Assembly (NCBI GenBank): GCA_949283305.1
Contig: CASDRU010000007.1
Coordinates: 1-50,283, forward strand
Length of the DNA stretch: 50,283 bases
Reading direction: 5' to 3'
Origin: an uncultured Spirochaetales bacterium
Lineage (GTDB): Bacteria; Spirochaetota; Spirochaetia; Sphaerochaetales; Sphaerochaetaceae
Below, one piece after another: positions 1-8,037 of the stretch (its first letter is position 1; every line of letters starts with the position of its first letter). Under the pieces are notes generated by a model. It was given only the letters and a program-made list of their open reading frames with translations, made no database searches and had not been told where the DNA came from. The position numbers and the translations under genes are program-made.

Positions 1-11
1 ATTCATGAATA

Positions 12-126
12 TCCTGGTGACCATAGCAGAGTGGAAATACACGTTCCCATCCCGAACACGTAAGTAAAACGCTCTAACGCCGATGGTACTTGAGCTTGCC
101 TCAGGGAGAGTAGGTAGTTGCCAGGT
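12..126 (+). rRNA. rrf: 5S ribosomal RNA
   Basis: The sequence has the conserved 5S body (ACCATAGCAGAGTGGAAA, then CCCATCCCGAACACG, then GGGAGAGTAGG). Its ends, CCTGG near 13 and CCAGG at 121-125, pair to form helix I. A run of T follows directly, so helix I plus this T-tract probably ends the operon. The 16S and 23S genes must lie to the left, outside the window. The exact 5' end is uncertain by a few bases. Confidence 0.95.
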
Positions 127-281
127 TTTTTTATTGTCTTTTTGCCATTAAATTTAATTTATTTATGATATTATAATTCTATTATTAATAATAAATATAA
201 TATTATATTTATATCATTCTAATTTATATACAATACTGAATAGTAAGTTACATATTTTTCATTGATTCCATCTGCACATTC

Positions 282-310
282 TTGAAACACTTTTAATTTC
301 TTCTGATTAT
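282..310 (+). promoter_or_regulatory. Promoter of the purine gene, leaderless type
   Basis: TTGAAA (282-287), 17-base spacer, GATTAT (305-310). The ATG at 317 begins only 6 bases after the -10 box, and no Shine-Dalgarno motif lies between, so transcription should start at or next to the start codon. Confidence 0.6.
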
Positions 311-316
311 TTAAGC

Positions 317-2149
317 ATGAGAGTTGAGGATTATTACAAGGCTGTTGCTTACCCGGGGCGATCAATTGCCGCAGGCTTTGACTTTGAGGGAGAATTCTTT
401 ATCTCCTATATCGTGACAGGGAGAAGTGCATCAAGCAGAAACAGGATAATGAAAGAAAAGGATGGTGGGCTTTGCCTTCTTTCTGCTGACGAGAGCAGCA
501 GCAAGAACTCCCATCTGATTTACTATGATGCTTTGCATGAGAACAGCGATTATCTTGTTCTTGCAAACGGAAGCCATTCTTCCTTTATATTCAGCTCTCT
601 TGTATCAGGGCTCTCCCTTTCAGAAATCATTACCAAGATGGATTATGAAGATGATGAAGTATCGACTGCCAGGATTGCAGCAGTGTTTTATAAAAAAGAA
701 AGATCATATGCACTGATGAGCGTATATAAAAACGAGAAAGGAGGTGCGAAGCGCCGGATATACAGATATGATGAAACTCCATTTGTTCATGCTATAAGCA
801 CATATTCCGGCTCTCTTTATGATATTTCTCCTTTTAAAGAGGATCCTCCTTCTCTTTTTCTCTCTTCCAGCTGTGCATCTGATGCAGCTGAAGCATTATA
901 TTCCTCAGTAAGTGAAGATGTAAGGGTATCTGTGTATGTATCATATAAAAATGAAAAAAGAGTATTAAACAGGATTTCAGATGAAAGGATTGATTTGAAA
1001 TATGGCCTGAATCCCGAGCAGAAAGGTGCATACTGTTATAAAGAATATTCTCTGCCGCTTAAGATTCTCAATGGAAAGCCCGGTTACATAAACATTCTTG
1101 ATGCTCTAAATTCATATGCTCTTGTACGTGATATGAGAAAAGTATTTTTAATTCCCTCTGCTGCAAGCTTCAAGCATGTATCCCCCTCTGGTGCTGCATT
1201 AGCTATTCCTTTAAGCGAAGAGGAAAGAAAAATGTATTATGTGAAGGAAGGTGAAAATCTTTCTGATATCGCAGTCGCATATATCAGGAGCAGGGGCACT
1301 GACAGAATGTCCAGCTATGGTGATTTTATAGCTCTCTCAGATCCTTGTGATGAATGCACTGCAAGAATAATCAAAAAGGAAGTTTCTGACGGAATCATTG
1401 CCCCTTCCTATTCAGATAAAGCGCTTGAAATCCTCAAAGAAAAGAAGAAAGGAAACTATGTTATTCTCAGAATCGATGAGAATTATGTTCCAAATAATTT
1501 CGAGAAAAGAGAAGTTTATGGTATAACACTGGCTGAGGAAAGAAATACAAGACTTCCAGAGGCAGATGATTTAAAAGACATAAGAACGGATAACAAGGAA
1601 ATAAGCGAAGAGAAAAAAAGAGATCTTCTGCTTGCGCTCTTAGTCTTGAAATATACACAGTCCAATTCTGTTGCAGTTTCCTATAACGGACAGAGTGTTG
1701 GAATTTCAGCAGGACAGCAGTCCAGACTTCATTCAGTGCGTCTTGCATGCACAAAGAGCGAGCGCTGGATTCTCCGTCATCATCCGTATGTGCTTTCCCT
1801 TCCATTCAAGGACAGCCTCAGCAGAAACGATAAGGACAATGTAATTGAACAGTATCTGTCTTGTGATCCTGAGATAGATGTAATCTCATCCTGGCAGGAT
1901 TATTTTACTCATGAGATAGTAAGACTGACTGAAGAGGAAAAGCATGCCTTCATATCATCTTTCTCTACTCTTTCTCTAGCAAGCGATGCATTCTTTCCTT
2001 TCAGGGATAATATTATAAGATGCGACAAGACAAATATAAAATATATAGCAGTCCCATCAGGATCTATTAGGGATTTTGATATAATTGATGAGGCAAATAA
2101 AAGGAATATGATAGTATCTTTCCTGCAATACAGATTATTTCATCATTAA
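317..2149 (+). CDS. Fused PurO-type IMP cyclohydrolase / AICAR transformylase
   Basis: This 610-residue protein should catalyse the last two steps of IMP synthesis: formylation of AICAR from 10-formyl-THF, then ring closure of FAICAR. The C-terminal part (about residue 215 to the end) is AICAR transformylase. It has LKYGLNPEQ, the catalytic Lys286-His287 pair in SFKHVSPSGAA, SNSVAVSYNGQSVGISAG and SDAFFPF, and ends in FHH like the clostridial free-standing enzyme. The N-terminal part (about 1-213) is not the MGS-like cyclohydrolase of normal PurH. It resembles the PurO family instead (YPGRSI near 12, GRSASSRNRI near 35, ANGSH near 83). As I recall, these two domains are usually separate neighbouring genes in Clostridia, so one polypeptide is unusual. 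The start at 317 is set by the promoter. The domain assignment is from motif recall, not a search. Confidence 0.85.
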   Translation: MRVEDYYKAVAYPGRSIAAGFDFEGEFFISYIVTGRSASSRNRIMKEKDGGLCLLSADESSSKNSHLIYYDALHENSDYLVLANGSHSSFIFSSLVSGLSLSEIITKMDYEDDEVSTARIAAVFYKKERSYALMSVYKNEKGGAKRRIYRYDETPFVHAISTYSGSLYDISPFKEDPPSLFLSSSCASDAAEALYSSVSEDVRVSVYVSYKNEKRVLNRISDERIDLKYGLNPEQKGAYCYKEYSLPLKILNGKPGYINILDALNSYALVRDMRKVFLIPSAASFKHVSPSGAALAIPLSEEERKMYYVKEGENLSDIAVAYIRSRGTDRMSSYGDFIALSDPCDECTARIIKKEVSDGIIAPSYSDKALEILKEKKKGNYVILRIDENYVPNNFEKREVYGITLAEERNTRLPEADDLKDIRTDNKEISEEKKRDLLLALLVLKYTQSNSVAVSYNGQSVGISAGQQSRLHSVRLACTKSERWILRHHPYVLSLPFKDSLSRNDKDNVIEQYLSCDPEIDVISSWQDYFTHEIVRLTEEEKHAFISSFSTLSLASDAFFPFRDNIIRCDKTNIKYIAVPSGSIRDFDIIDEANKRNMIVSFLQYRLFHH

Positions 2150-2154
2150 TATTA

Positions 2155-2174
2155 TATAAAATTTATATTTTATA
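2155..2174 (+). terminator. A/T-only hairpin after the purine gene
   Basis: A perfect 8-bp inverted repeat, TATAAAAT / ATTTTATA with a 4-base loop, lies 6 bases after the stop codon at 2149 and is followed by T-rich sequence. With no G-C pair it is a weak terminator at best and could be chance in such A/T-rich DNA. Confidence 0.3.
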
Positions 2175-2253
2175 ATTTAATTATTATATTATTTTTATGT
2201 TATTAAATACAATTTAGTCAAATATGACTTTCTCTCTCGGTACAAGTTTTTTA

Positions 2254-2281
2254 TTGATGGTATCTTAAACTGTGTTATCAT
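2254..2281 (+). promoter_or_regulatory. Promoter of the outer-membrane protein/lipoprotein pair
   Basis: TTGATG (2254-2259), 16-base spacer, TATCAT (2276-2281). It leaves a short leader containing AGGAGG before the GTG at 2303, so this unit has a conventional ribosome-binding site. Confidence 0.55.
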
Positions 2282-2302
2282 AGAAAAAAAGGAGGAAGAA
2301 AG

Positions 2303-2974
2303 GTGAAGAAAACAATGCTGATTTTGTTTGTTCTGCTCATTTGCTTGACAGGCCTTGCAGCAAAGAACGCTAATCATTATCCGATGGTAGTACTTGGCGG
2401 ACAATATTTCGACACAGAGCGATATTATAGTGATGGAGATATATGGTTTGATGGCCAGAAATTCACTTTTTCTGCAGGTGCATCTTACACAGGTTATTTC
2501 TGGGGAGGAAGCATACCGGGTGCGCAAGATACAGTAAAGCGCAGAGCTTCAGGGGATGTATATGAGCCAAGAAGGTATTCTGCAACTCAAAGTTCGCGGG
2601 GCAATGCAAATGTAGAAAAAGTTAAGCCATACCATACAGTCGGAATGAATTTTTCGACAACATATTCAAAATTTTATGAAAAACCTAATGAAATGAATGA
2701 TTATGACAGATACTTAGATTATTATGATGTATATCTTGCATCTATTTCCGTAGCTCTTCGTCAGAAAATAAATGACTTCATGTTTGTCTATGAAAATCCA
2801 GGAATAATGGGAGGTATGTGGTTTGCTGGCGTCACATGTGATGCAGGAGTTATGTTTGATTTCAAGTACGCAACGCTCAATGTCGGGCTTAAGGTATCTT
2901 TTGGCTATAATTTCATGGTAGAAATGATAGATGTTCCTACAATGATTTATTTTGGTGCAGGTTATTCATTCTAA
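2303..2974 (+). CDS. Predicted outer-membrane beta-barrel protein, function unknown
   Basis: I do not recognise the family. The first ~20 residues are a clear signal peptide (KK, then a Leu/Ile-rich core, then GLAAK). The rest alternates aromatic and small residues, and the protein ends in GAGYSF. A C-terminal Phe after alternating hydrophobics is the signal used by the outer-membrane insertion machinery, so a small barrel is likely. The middle (about 75-110) is Arg/Lys/Ser-rich and may form a loop. GTG at 2303 is chosen because AGGAGG lies 7 bases upstream. A lipoprotein gene follows 15 bases later, so the two probably share a transcript and the cell envelope. Confidence 0.75.
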   Translation: MKKTMLILFVLLICLTGLAAKNANHYPMVVLGGQYFDTERYYSDGDIWFDGQKFTFSAGASYTGYFWGGSIPGAQDTVKRRASGDVYEPRRYSATQSSRGNANVEKVKPYHTVGMNFSTTYSKFYEKPNEMNDYDRYLDYYDVYLASISVALRQKINDFMFVYENPGIMGGMWFAGVTCDAGVMFDFKYATLNVGLKVSFGYNFMVEMIDVPTMIYFGAGYSF

Positions 2975-2989
2975 AAGGAGTGTTTTGAT

Positions 2990-3499
2990 ATGAAAAAGAT
3001 TTTGTTTGTTTTAGTTTCTTTAATTGTTTTATTTGGTTTTACATCATGCAGCTCTACAGAAGCTCCAGATTACGGCTATCTTGGAATGTTCCCGATGAGA
3101 GATGTTCCTGTAGCAAATATCGATGAACTTCAGAGCGGAAGTTTTGAGGTTCTTGGAATGGTCACAGGAGAAGCAAATGTATCTATAGAATATCCATATG
3201 ATGGAGATACACAGGGTTATGGCTCTCTTGAAATCCTTGATGTTGACAGAATGTATTTTGGGGTAGATCTTTTCAGCCGCAAAGGTCAGCCTTATTTCAT
3301 AGCTCTCTCAAATGCAATAAACGAGATGACAAAGAATGCCAGGGAAATGGGAGCATCCTTTGTGACATTCCCAAGCTACACTCTTGATCTTGTGGACGGA
3401 AGGATACATGCAGTAGTTTCTGCAACAGCAGTCAAGCTTGTAAATCCTCCAGAGGAGGTTATAATCAACCATTCATTGCCTGATACAATAATAAACTGA
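2990..3499 (+). CDS. Lipoprotein, function unknown
   Basis: A 169-residue protein with a signal peptide and a lipobox (FTSC, Cys near residue 20), so it should be lipid-anchored. Around residues 53-62 it reads EVLGMVTGEA, and a later helix (about 108-125) contains AINEMTKNAREMGASFV. This order recalls the YbjQ-like small-protein fold, but the likeness is weak and I assign no function. AAGGAG lies at a normal distance before the ATG. It is second in a two-gene unit with the predicted outer-membrane protein and is followed by a strong terminator. Confidence 0.8.
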   Translation: MKKILFVLVSLIVLFGFTSCSSTEAPDYGYLGMFPMRDVPVANIDELQSGSFEVLGMVTGEANVSIEYPYDGDTQGYGSLEILDVDRMYFGVDLFSRKGQPYFIALSNAINEMTKNAREMGASFVTFPSYTLDLVDGRIHAVVSATAVKLVNPPEEVIINHSLPDTIIN

Positions 3500-3519
3500 T
3501 ATAATTAGCTTTGTTAACT

Positions 3520-3556
3520 AATATGGGCATGAGTTTTTCATGCCCATATTTATTTG
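3520..3556 (+). terminator. Strong hairpin terminator
   Basis: A perfect 13-bp stem (3520-3532 with 3538-3550, core ATATGGGCATGA) and a short T-rich loop, followed by TATTT. It ends the outer-membrane protein/lipoprotein unit. Confidence 0.8.
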
Positions 3557-3575
3557 AAATAATTTCATTACATGC

Positions 3576-3604
3576 TTTAAATTAAAATCAAATTATGGTA
3601 TTTT
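3576..3604 (+). promoter_or_regulatory. Possible typA promoter
   Basis: TTTAAA (3576-3581), 17-base spacer, TATTTT (3599-3604). The ATG is 10 bases further on with no Shine-Dalgarno motif, so the mRNA would have only a few untranslated bases. The match to consensus is modest. Confidence 0.4.
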
Positions 3605-3614
3605 CTCTTTCTGT

Positions 3615-5450
3615 ATGATTACGCGTAATGAGAATATAAGAAATATAGCTATTATTGCACATGTTGATCATGGAAAGACCACATTGGTTGATGCTCTTTT
3701 CAAGCAGAGCGGACTTGTTGGAAAAGGTCTTGATGTTGACCGTGTCATGGACAGCGGTGAAATAGAAAGAGAGCGTGGAATCACGATAAATGCAAAGAAC
3801 TGTGCAATAAGATGGAAGGGCGTTAAGATAAACATCATCGACACTCCGGGCCATGCTGATTTTGGAGGAGAAGTTGAAAGAGGACTTTCGATGGTCGATG
3901 GAGCAATCCTGCTTGTTGATGCAGCTGAAGGACCTCTTCCTCAGACAAGATTCGTTCTTGAAAAAGCACTTAAGAAAAAGCTTTCTATAATTGTTGTTAT
4001 AAACAAGATAGACCGGCCTGATGCAAGGGCTGAGGAAGTTCTGGATGAGGTTTATGATCTTCTTCTGGAGCTTGGCGAAGATGAGAGCCTTCTTGATGTT
4101 CCAGTCTTCTATGCAAACGGAAGATCAGGAAAGTGCGGAAAAAAGCTTGATGAGATAAAAGATAATCTCTATGAGCTCCTTGATGCAATTATAGAAGAAA
4201 TCCCGGCACCATCATATGATGATTCTGAGCCTTTCCAGATGCTTGTATCTGATCTTTCATATTCTGAATTCCTTGGCCGTCTTGCAATTGGTAAGGTAAT
4301 CAACGGAACTGCAAATACAAATGACATTCTTGTTTGTGTCAAGGAAGACAGGACTGAACAGCTCAGGGTAACTAGGCTGCAGGCATATGATGGCCCTAAG
4401 TTCAAGGATACAGATAAGGTTGAAAGCGGGGATATCATTGTCCTGAGCGGCGTAAATGATGTCTCAATCGGTGATACTATCTGTACTAAAGAGGAAATAA
4501 AGGCACTTGAGAGGATAACAGTTGATGAGCCTACTGTATCAATGCTCTTTTCAAAGAATATTTCACCTCTTGCTGGAAAAGAAGGAAAGATTGTTACAAG
4601 TGCTAAAATCTGGGAACGTCTTCAAAAAGAGGCTCTCAGGAATGTTTCTATCAGGATTGAGAAGAATGCAGACGATACATTCACTGTAAAGGGGCGCGGA
4701 GAGTTCCAGATGGCAATCATCATCGAGCAGATGAGAAGAGAGGGATTTGAGCTCTGTGTCGGAAGGCCAAAGATCATCTTCCATCAGGATGAGAATGGAA
4801 ACAAGACCGAGCCTGTTGAAATCCTATATATTGACTGCCCTGAGGATTCATCCGGAGTTGTAATGGAAAAACTTGGAAGGAAGAAAGGCAAAGTCCTTGA
4901 TATCTCATATCCTGGAAACGGGAGAGTGAAGATGCGCTTTGAAATTCCTTCCCGTGGCCTGATTGGATACCGCGATGAATTTCTTACAGACACCAAGGGT
5001 TTTGGAATCATGAGCAGTTATCTTAAAGGCTATGAGCGTTACAAGGGCGATTTCCCTGAGCGCTATTCAGGATCTCTTGTATGCGACAGAGCCGGAAACG
5101 CGGTTGCTTACGGAATATGGGAGCTTGAGGACAGAGGAAGATTCTTCATTGTCCCTGGTGATGAGGTATATGAAGGGGAAGTTGTCGGAGAAAGAAACAG
5201 GGATGGAGATCTTCTTTTGAATCCCACAAGAACAAAAAAACTTACAAACCTGAGGGCAAGCGGAAAGGATGAGGCAGTAACTCTTATTCCAGTTTCCAAG
5301 CCGACGCTCGAGCAGGCAATCCAGTTCATCAAGGATGATGAGCTTGTAGAGGTCACTCCAGAGAGCATCAGGATGTGTAAGAAGATCCTTGATAGCCAGA
5401 AGAGGAAAATATACCAGCAGAGGGGAGAAATCCCATCATATTTGCTTTAA
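3615..5450 (+). CDS. typA: Ribosome-binding GTPase TypA/BipA
   Basis: A translational GTPase of the EF-G/LepA superfamily that binds the ribosome and supports growth under stress and late 50S assembly in well-studied bacteria. All G motifs are present: AHVDHGKTT (15-23), RGITI in switch I, DTPGHADF with the catalytic His, and NKID. The C-terminal region has the family's RGEFQMAIIIEQMRREG, SRGLIGYRDEF and RTKKLTNLRASGKDE. The length (611) is normal. It is transcribed alone: a terminator lies upstream and another downstream. No Shine-Dalgarno sequence precedes the ATG. Confidence 0.97.
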   Translation: MITRNENIRNIAIIAHVDHGKTTLVDALFKQSGLVGKGLDVDRVMDSGEIERERGITINAKNCAIRWKGVKINIIDTPGHADFGGEVERGLSMVDGAILLVDAAEGPLPQTRFVLEKALKKKLSIIVVINKIDRPDARAEEVLDEVYDLLLELGEDESLLDVPVFYANGRSGKCGKKLDEIKDNLYELLDAIIEEIPAPSYDDSEPFQMLVSDLSYSEFLGRLAIGKVINGTANTNDILVCVKEDRTEQLRVTRLQAYDGPKFKDTDKVESGDIIVLSGVNDVSIGDTICTKEEIKALERITVDEPTVSMLFSKNISPLAGKEGKIVTSAKIWERLQKEALRNVSIRIEKNADDTFTVKGRGEFQMAIIIEQMRREGFELCVGRPKIIFHQDENGNKTEPVEILYIDCPEDSSGVVMEKLGRKKGKVLDISYPGNGRVKMRFEIPSRGLIGYRDEFLTDTKGFGIMSSYLKGYERYKGDFPERYSGSLVCDRAGNAVAYGIWELEDRGRFFIVPGDEVYEGEVVGERNRDGDLLLNPTRTKKLTNLRASGKDEAVTLIPVSKPTLEQAIQFIKDDELVEVTPESIRMCKKILDSQKRKIYQQRGEIPSYLL

Positions 5451-5471
5451 GGATAAAAAACAGCAAAATAG

Positions 5472-5497
5472 AAGGCCGCAGAACGTGGCCTTTTTTC
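5472..5497 (+). terminator. typA terminator
   Basis: AAGGCC (5472-5477) pairs with GGCCTT (5487-5492) around a 9-base loop, with a T-tract running on from the stem. It lies 21 bases after the typA stop. Confidence 0.8.
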
Positions 5498-5567
5498 TTT
5501 AATATGAATTTATATCAGCAATTGCATATAAATGCGTCTATGAGAATCCTCAGAAGAGTTTTTCCTG

Positions 5568-6323
5568 TCAATCTCTGATTTCAACGCTTACAGGACAGTG
5601 ATCAGAGCCAAATACTTCAGTATGTATTGCCGCATCTACAAGGCGGTCTTTCATATTCTCTGATGCAACAAAATAGTCAATACGCCAGCCTGTATTCTTT
5701 TCTCTTGCTTTGAACATATAGCTCCACCAGGAATATATTTCTTTTTTATCGGGATAGAAGTATCTGAACGTATCGATAAAACCAGAGTCAAGAAGCTTTG
5801 AAAAATCTTCTCTCTCCTCTTTTGTAAATCCTGCATTCATTGTATTTGTCTTAGGATTTTTCAGATCAATTTCTTTATGAGCTACATTCAAGTCTCCTGT
5901 AAAAAGAACGCCTTTATCCTCTTTCAGTTCATTCAAATAACCTCTCATATACTCATCGAATTCCATTCTCAGAGGAAGTCTTGCAAGCTCTCTCTGCGAA
6001 TTTGGAACATAACATGTGACAAGATAAAATGTTGAGAAGTCTGCAGTGATGACCCTTCCCTCTGTATCAGCAACAGGATGTCCAATTTTATATCTTACAT
6101 CCAGCGGCTTGATTTTAGAAAGCATGGCTGTTCCGCTGTATCCTTTCTTTTCCGCAGGATTTATATATATTTGATAATCAGGAAGATCAAATGAAAAATC
6201 ATCAGCAGATGCCTTTATCTCCTCAAGAGATAGGATATCTGGATTATAGCTGTCAACAAAGTTATAGAAACCTTTATTTACACAGGCTCTTATTCCGTTT
6301 ACATTCCAATTAAAAAGTCTCAT
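5568..6323 (-). CDS. xthA: Exodeoxyribonuclease III / AP endonuclease
   Basis: A 251-residue member of the exonuclease III family, which cuts DNA 5' to abasic sites and removes 3' blocking groups in base excision repair. Visible active-site motifs are NWNVNGIRA at the N-terminus, the metal-binding LEE near 33-35, GDLNVAH (catalytic Asp and Asn) and the C-terminal SDHCPV (Asp-His). The reading frame stays open about 20 codons upstream, but the ATG at 6323 is preferred because ExoIII starts at this motif and the -10 box lies 7 bases before it. It is convergent with typA. Confidence 0.93.
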   Translation of the reverse strand: MRLFNWNVNGIRACVNKGFYNFVDSYNPDILSLEEIKASADDFSFDLPDYQIYINPAEKKGYSGTAMLSKIKPLDVRYKIGHPVADTEGRVITADFSTFYLVTCYVPNSQRELARLPLRMEFDEYMRGYLNELKEDKGVLFTGDLNVAHKEIDLKNPKTNTMNAGFTKEEREDFSKLLDSGFIDTFRYFYPDKKEIYSWWSYMFKAREKNTGWRIDYFVASENMKDRLVDAAIHTEVFGSDHCPVSVEIRD

Positions 6324-6330
6324 GTACTGA

Positions 6331-6359
6331 ATTCTACATTCAGAACAAGAAGAATACAA
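6331..6359 (-). promoter_or_regulatory. xthA promoter, leaderless type
   Basis: On the minus strand: TTGTAT (6354-6359), 17-base spacer, TAGAAT (6331-6336), then 7 bases to the ATG (6321-6323). There is no Shine-Dalgarno motif. Confidence 0.6.
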
Positions 6360-6809
6360 TAATATAAAAAATATAGTAAACAAAATAAATATAATTAAAT
6401 ATAAATATTATATATAAGTAATATAATATAAAAATTATATATTAAAATAAAACATAATAGTTTCTTTTATTCGAAGCGAAACAAATTCTTATGGTTATGA
6501 TATCATAATTTAAAATAATTCATAAAAATATAATTATTATTATATGTTTTAAATTAGATTACATAGGTTAATTATAGCATAATAAATTAAAATGATACAA
6601 AAATTATTTATTTTACATGTAATTAAATTTTAACATCGAATGTTTATGGATATACAAAAAACATATCTAAAATATATCAAAGTAAAAAGAATATATACAA
6701 TAACAATATAATTAATATGTATTTATATATATAAATTATTTAATAAATGTAATTAATAATATCTAAATCTAAAAAAATAATTTAATTTACTACTTTTTTT
6801 ATTTTGATA
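6360..6809. other. Long A/T-rich non-coding gap between xthA and parA
   Basis: About 450 bases made almost wholly of A and T, with no credible coding frame. Short words recur (TGTAATTAA and TATCTAAA each twice), but I see no regular iteron array or long inverted repeat. In type Ib partition systems the centromere lies directly upstream of parA, so this is the natural place for one. Nothing in the sequence proves it. Confidence 0.4.
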
Positions 6810-6838
6810 TTGTAAGTTGTCATTTACCGTTTTATAAT
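6810..6838 (+). promoter_or_regulatory. parA promoter with possible operator
   Basis: TTGTAA (6810-6815), 17-base spacer, consensus TATAAT (6833-6838). The halves TGTCA (6818-6822) and TGACA (6839-6843) flank the -10 box as a spaced inverted repeat, where a self-repressing partner protein could bind. A normal leader with GGAGG follows. Confidence 0.65.
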
Positions 6839-6859
6839 TGACAGTACTTGGAGGATTTC

Positions 6860-7627
6860 ATGTCTAAGACTGTGGCATTTCATTTGCAGAAGGGAGGAGT
6901 TGGAAAAACTACAATTTCCGGTACTCTCGCATGCCAGAGTGCGCTTGAAGGACATAAGACTCTTATTGTTGACTGCGATCCGCAGGGCAACATATCTTCT
7001 TGGTTCCTTACCGATCCTCCAAAATTTGAGCTTGCAGATGTCCTAATGGGCAAATGCTATGTATATGATGCCATAATTCCAGTTCAGGGAATTGATAACC
7101 TTTTTATTCTTCCGACATTCGGTATTGGTGGCTCTTTAAAGACATACAGTGAAACTAAGCTTTCGGATGAACCTTATATTCTTCAGGATCTTATAAAAGA
7201 GGTCTCATCCAGCTATGATCATATTCTTTTGGATTTATCTCCGGGGCTTGGACGCCTTGAGCGCAGCTGTCTTATAGCATCTGATGAGATTGTTACTCCG
7301 ATGACACCTGAAATATTCAGCTTGGATGGCCTTGAGATATTCATCGATGAGCTTGCAAAGCTTAGAAAGAACATGCGAGTTAATATTAAACATAATAAGA
7401 TAATCATAAACTCTTTTGATACGAGAATAAGGCAGCACAGGGACATATATGAAGCTGCTCTCTCAAGCGGGAAATTCAAAGTTTTTAAAATCCCAGTTGA
7501 TCCGCTGTTCAGAAAAGCTCAGGAAAACTCAAAGGTTCCTCAGCTTTTCAAGGTGCGCGGCAGGGGATTGAAGGAACAGACGTTTTCTGCTGTCAAGGAG
7601 CTTGATTACTATATATGGAGAACATAG
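6860..7627 (+). CDS. parA: ParA-family partition ATPase, short type Ib
   Basis: A 255-residue deviant-Walker ATPase that moves DNA cargo over the nucleoid. It has KGGVGKTT (11-18, signature Lys first), VDCDPQGN (38-44) and the Walker B region LLDLSP. There is no N-terminal helix-turn-helix, the mark of the small type Ib ParA proteins that pair with ribbon-helix-helix partners. ATG 6860 is chosen over a TTG four codons earlier because GGAGG (6850-6854) is correctly spaced only for the ATG and overlaps the other start. It is followed after 14 bases by its likely partner gene. There is no parB. Whether it serves the chromosome, an integrated element or another cargo cannot be told. Confidence 0.88.
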   Translation: MSKTVAFHLQKGGVGKTTISGTLACQSALEGHKTLIVDCDPQGNISSWFLTDPPKFELADVLMGKCYVYDAIIPVQGIDNLFILPTFGIGGSLKTYSETKLSDEPYILQDLIKEVSSSYDHILLDLSPGLGRLERSCLIASDEIVTPMTPEIFSLDGLEIFIDELAKLRKNMRVNIKHNKIIINSFDTRIRQHRDIYEAALSSGKFKVFKIPVDPLFRKAQENSKVPQLFKVRGRGLKEQTFSAVKELDYYIWRT

Positions 7628-7641
7628 GAAGGAGTGGTAAT

Positions 7642-7881
7642 ATGGCATTGAAGAAAACTGATGAGAATCTTGAATCTGTTAAGGATGAAAGCATGAGCGG
7701 AAAGAAGGCTAAGGCTGTTTTTTCCCAGAATGTGAAGGAAAAGAAGGTTCTTACAACTTTTTCTGTTGAACCGTCATTCAAGGCAGAGCTTGAAGAGCTT
7801 TTTGCAGATCTCGGGCTCGGATGGTCTGCAGGCATCAGATTTGCACTTAAAGAATTCTATAAAAAGTATTCTTCTAACTGA
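7642..7881 (+). CDS. Small ribbon-helix-helix protein, likely ParA partner
   Basis: A 79-residue protein with a polar, Lys-rich N-terminal tail (1-35). A beta-strand (KVLTTFSVE, 35-43) and two helices (about 44-57 and 61-75) follow. This is the layout of ParG/omega-type partition proteins: the folded part binds centromere and operator DNA as a dimer, and the flexible tail stimulates the ParA ATPase. The tail here has Lys but no Arg, so an arginine-finger role as in ParG is not evident. GGAG sits 7 bases before the ATG. Function is inferred from fold and position. Confidence 0.75.
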   Translation: MALKKTDENLESVKDESMSGKKAKAVFSQNVKEKKVLTTFSVEPSFKAELEELFADLGLGWSAGIRFALKEFYKKYSSN

Positions 7882-7903
7882 TAATTTCTATTTTCATATA
7901 ATT

Positions 7904-7943
7904 TACTTCTCATATTTTTTCTATATGAGAAGTAGATTTTTTT
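7904..7943 (+). terminator. Terminator of the parA cassette
   Basis: A perfect 12-bp stem (TACTTCTCATAT at 7904-7915 with 7923-7934), 7-base loop, followed by GA and seven T. Confidence 0.9.
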
Positions 7944-8037
7944 ATTTTATTTTTAATGTATAACTTAATTATTATAATATTAAAATTAAATAAAATAATA
8001 TAAATTCATATAAATTTACTATATATTAAACTAATAA

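Follow-up and report, generated by a model that had tools for sequence, protein, structure and literature searches.

PurH is the textbook bifunctional enzyme. The DNA analysed here, a stretch of 50,283 nucleotides of gut spirochaete origin that we refer to as the window, carries near its start a gene that raises the question of whether the same two reactions have been joined a second time from other parts. It further raises the questions of where such a joining took place and what its product serves in this genome. The features considered are the following:

13..126, + strand: 5S rRNA, which precedes the fused gene directly and marks the end of the contig (Rfam RF00001; context only)
317..2149, + strand: fused purO-AICARFT gene, a single ORF from ATG to stop, 610 aa (Pfam/NCBIfam)
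350..958, + strand, residues 12-214: PurO-type IMP cyclohydrolase domain with the Ntn-hydrolase fold (PF07826; PDB 2ntk/1kuu, by sequence and fold)
959..985, + strand, residues 215-223: junction (junction comparison and alignment of fused proteins)
986..2146, + strand, residues 224-610: folate-dependent AICAR transformylase domain (NF005492; ATIC structures)

The frame at 317-2149 is uninterrupted over 610 codons. A sequence-only reading of the locus had proposed that the N-terminal half belongs to the PurO family and is not MGS-like, and that an AICAR transformylase follows in the same chain; both assignments held. In the profile search, PF07826 matched residues 12-214 with an E-value of 1.3e-27 (97.1 bits against a cut-off of 28.1), and no MGS-like domain was found in the 610-aa protein. 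PF01808 matched residues 190-480 (E 5e-56), and the PRK07106-type AICARFT model NF005492 matched residues 224-610 at full length (profile positions 3-390 of 390), with 517 bits against a cut-off of 415. The classical PurH model TIGR00355 stayed below its cut-off (249.8 of 528 bits), as did the archaeal PurO equivalogs TIGR01922 (57.9 of 158 bits) and NF003167 (67.8 of 150 bits). Searching the PDB by sequence matched residues 12-131 to MTH1020/PurO and residues 211/224-610 to vertebrate and fungal ATIC. An AlphaFold model of the fused protein, built from 38 sequences, reached a mean pLDDT of 90.8, and a fold search with it retrieved PurO (2ntm/2ntk, TM-score by target 0.79) as well as human, avian and fungal ATIC transformylase (Foldseek E about 1e-43).

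With PurH/ATIC the protein shares the two reactions, the N-to-C order, a homologous transformylase half and a conserved K-H pair, whereas its cyclohydrolase is PurO with an Ntn-hydrolase fold in place of the unrelated MGS-like PurH2 domain. The earlier proposal of a fusion independent of PurH is supported. The clostridial tandem of purO and a PRK07106-type AICARFT has homologous domains, the same gene order and the same place in the pur operon, but there the two genes are parted by a stop codon. Archaeal PurO (MTH1020, TK0430) resembles the N-terminal half in PF07826 membership, fold and aligned R, Y and E residues, yet it is a stand-alone protein in archaea and the spirochaete domain scores under the archaeal-equivalog cut-offs. 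The halobacterial PurN-PurH1 protein is another lineage-specific fusion that uses the PurH1 domain alongside PurO, although its partner is PurN and PurO is separate there (PMC3261824). The spirochaete protein is a genuine new architecture of known parts and not a PurH member. No earlier description of a PurO-AICARFT fusion was found in the open-access articles searched.

In the PurO half, R41, Y70 and E111 align with R30, Y59 and E104 of MTH1020, which we take to be the catalytic residues proposed for PurO by Kang et al. 2007. PurO catalysis is also ascribed, as a proposal given without position numbers, to an arginine, a tyrosine and a glutamate in PMC6797443. The single further substrate contact compared, Asn54, falls opposite Ser65 in the pairwise alignment, in a loop whose alignment is uncertain. 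In the transformylase half, Y229, K286, H287, D358, N450, R470 and R606 correspond to avian Y209, K267, H268, D340, N432, R452 and R589, and the alignment with avian ATIC thereby retains the catalytic pair K286-H287. Avian R208, an AICAR contact, is conservatively swapped for K228, which is common to all 13 other aligned fused proteins. From the sequence we infer that the fused protein works in a PurH-like manner: its C-terminal half would transfer the formyl group from 10-formyl-THF to AICAR, giving FAICAR, and its PurO half would close FAICAR to IMP. Both catalytic activities are predicted ones, and any benefit of being fused is likewise putative.

The source of AICAR was addressed by an inventory of the genome, a draft MAG of 1,492,767 bases in 22 contigs that is 95.7% complete and in whose gaps missing genes could sit. 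E. coli K-12 queries gave no match in this genome for purF, M, N, T, L, K, E or C, congener queries gave none for purE, C, F, M, N or L, and profiles for purM and full-length purF gave none either. An orphan purD-like gene with GARS N, A and C domains is present (L128:7327-8592, on G000:C16) in the absence of detected purF, purM, purN and purL. The genome does carry purA, purB, guaA, folD and glyA as well as a complete his operon (hisG-D-C-B-H-A-F-I), and guaB was not found with the E. coli K-12 query. Since no de novo purine synthesis was detected upstream of AICAR, the likely substrate is histidine-derived AICAR, and the enzyme of this genome most likely recycles it to IMP; the orphan purD-like gene counts against this reading. 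ATP would enter at HisG, AICAR would leave at HisF/HisH, and PurA and PurB would take the resulting IMP back to AMP and ATP, to be consumed by HisG. As guaB was not found, IMP here could reach AMP and not XMP. Five purM-less genomes have guaB immediately before the fused gene (L010, L011, L012, L013 and L045; also L184 and L185), which suggests a new IMP-to-XMP neighbourhood.

Brown et al. 2011 predicted that any organism making histidine should retain the final two steps of the purine pathway so as to reclaim AICAR (PMC3261824), and the gene pattern across the genus Candidatus Ornithospirochaeta fits this prediction. Among its 48 genomes purM is absent from 35 and present in 13, and 12 of these 13 have purF over the cut-off and one a partial purF. 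By comparison, hisF is over the cut-off in 43 of the 48 and purA in 44. The link between PurO-FT and histidine synthesis is not strict across the genus: five genomes have hisF without a detected PurO-FT, and G011, G066 and perhaps G030 have PurO-FT without a detectable hisF.

The window copy itself could be decaying or shifted in function, with an intact frame and a constraint relaxed after the pathway was lost. To ten congeners it averages 36% identity in PurO and 57% in FT, while the other ten range over 40-52% and 65-72%. This fast divergence of both halves concerns the fused gene only, as the genome's PurA and HisF diverge ordinarily. It is preceded by no Shine-Dalgarno-like motif, which is likewise absent before three other fused copies. 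Around the gene, from the 5S rRNA up to about 10.5 kb, the sequence is AT-rich (GC about 0.37 vs 0.436). Faster divergence, the lack of this motif and the AT-rich contig end together make relaxed constraint possible, and no copy is detectable in the sister genome G020. That genome is collinear with the window at 92% from position 7990 onward; its contig ends there and leaves 1-7989 uncovered, for which reason the missing copy was not taken as gene loss in G020. On the other hand, 610 codons without a stop, the core catalytic residues in both halves and the confident fold speak against decay, as do the well-conserved copies retained by other purM-less genomes. We therefore regard decay or a shift in function as unlikely, though it is the strongest of the competing explanations, and continue with recycling of histidine-derived AICAR as the preferred reading.

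It is less likely still that the fused enzyme serves de novo purine synthesis and that the draft simply lacks the upstream genes. The fragmented state of the assembly would allow this, and in the relatives G002, G063 and G071 the fused gene does stand within a full pur operon. These are three of the 13 genus members with purM directly upstream of the purO-FT pair; those whose wider locus was inspected show purE-C-F-M-N-[purO-FT]-D-L. Against it, the pur genes adjoin purO-FT in such relatives, while the genes around the window copy encode an unannotated protein, a lipoprotein-like protein and TypA. Moreover, purM and purF have been lost jointly in most of the genus, including G014, G017, G061 and G067, which are 95-99% complete. 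Fusion and pathway loss showed no association (Fisher p = 0.19), and neither the window nor 16 genus loci gave a riboswitch hit at gathering cut-offs.

The sequence-only reading had taken the isolated position of the gene and its clostridial look as signs of transfer. With E. coli pur references no other pur gene was found in the window; the isolated position is accounted for by the disappearance of the other pathway genes. As to the clostridial look, many clostridial loci do share the operon order of the genus, with purO and FT as separate genes, and the first 10 kb of the window are compositionally unlike the rest of the genome, their tetranucleotide profile lying beyond those of the 134 other 10-kb chunks. 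Both points would suit a recent arrival of the fused gene from Clostridia. In the transformylase tree, however, the window copy falls in a Sphaerochaetaceae clade of Ornithospirochaeta and Sphaerochaeta-like sequences (support 100/93 and 97/80) that is separate from the Bacillota sampled, and the low-GC stretch continues past 7990 into sequence collinear with G020. A Sphaerochaeta-like genome of the same family has the order purM-N-O-FT-D. The likeness to Clostridia thus stands as an operon shared at the family level, while transfer of the gene is not supported, given this nesting and the three relatives that have the fused gene in an intact pur operon; a recent transfer from Clostridia appears very improbable. 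Contamination is unlikely as well, because the 5S sequence recurs at 99-100% where contigs C8 and C6 of this genome begin and because of the collinearity with G020.

One exception in the transformylase tree is the copy of G026, which falls among Bacillota. Between them, its loci L031 (G026:C81) and L040 (G026:C47) hold a split purO-AICARFT pair that belongs to a pur operon and an additional stand-alone PurO resembling the genus's own, a pattern that reflects either transfer or contamination. A second, divergent PurO without an adjacent AICARFT was seen at L037 (G031:C13) and L038 (G001:C18).

The operon is shared across the family, and the fusion came later, at the genus level. In the genus census 17 genomes have the fused ORF, 26 have purO and AICARFT as separate genes that keep this order and adjoin or overlap, and 5 have neither. 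The possibility that relatives have two separate genes was therefore borne out, in 26 of 48 genomes, while the accompanying suspicion of a sequencing join was not: the same continuous ORF in 17 separate genomes indicates that the fusion is real. Three of the 17 are also found in a named GenBank collection, and the fused gene is present on GenBank JADIMF010000073.1 and on contig G029:C31. A chimeric assembly or sequencing join of two genes, for which only the contig end beside a repeated 5S gene could be cited, can practically be dismissed given these 17 genomes and the three found in that collection.

The split pairs of the genus mostly overlap or abut, the two genes of every pair being in different frames, and the junction of the window copy stands where the split relatives have their stop/start overlap. 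The fused proteins cross it by a short link, which is 9 residues in the window copy. All 77 split pairs listed in the wider scan have same-frame genes, which was rejected as a signal: only top-scoring loci are retained there, and because tblastn alignments continue across an in-frame stop, same-frame pairs rank first. The genus set is free of this bias. Within Ornithospirochaeta, then, the fusion was formed from an ancestral tandem pair, by the joining of purO and AICARFT, which lay side by side and usually overlapped in an ancestral pur operon. The best trees imply 3-4 changes between fused and split states, although the AU test does not reject a single origin (p = 0.079). On these trees the window copy has a long branch, and its two halves are placed differently.

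Outside the genus no fusion was detected in the genomes and loci covered: in the 393 Spirochaetota genomes sampled PurO occurs in 86, with long fused frames in genus members only; in the clostridial phylum to which Evtepia belongs (398 genomes) all 24 PurO frames were <450 aa; and when 84,980 species were scanned, the fused ones among the best 80 loci were from Ornithospirochaeta only. Earlier surveys describe PurO as rare in bacteria or as archaeal only. Among Treponema-like and other Spirochaetota genomes (L154-L183), single-gene PurO is common in one large genus (g37) of the class, mostly without a neighbouring AICARFT.

Taken together, we consider it likely that the protein is an equivalent of PurH/ATIC reached by convergence, formed by a genus-level fusion of neighbouring genes and employed here in recycling histidine-derived AICAR. 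More tentatively, PurH may have been re-invented, perhaps repeatedly in one genus, and retained for histidine-to-ATP recycling, with the linking of both steps itself under selection. Human PurH has been reported to lack channelling between its domains (PMC6797443), which raises the question why both steps are fused. The non-homologous fusion seen here, with its identical order, repeats the PurH join independently. Since Ornithospirochaeta has fused and split forms side by side, both in genomes that keep the remaining pathway and in genomes that do not, what fusion is worth can be compared directly between close relatives.
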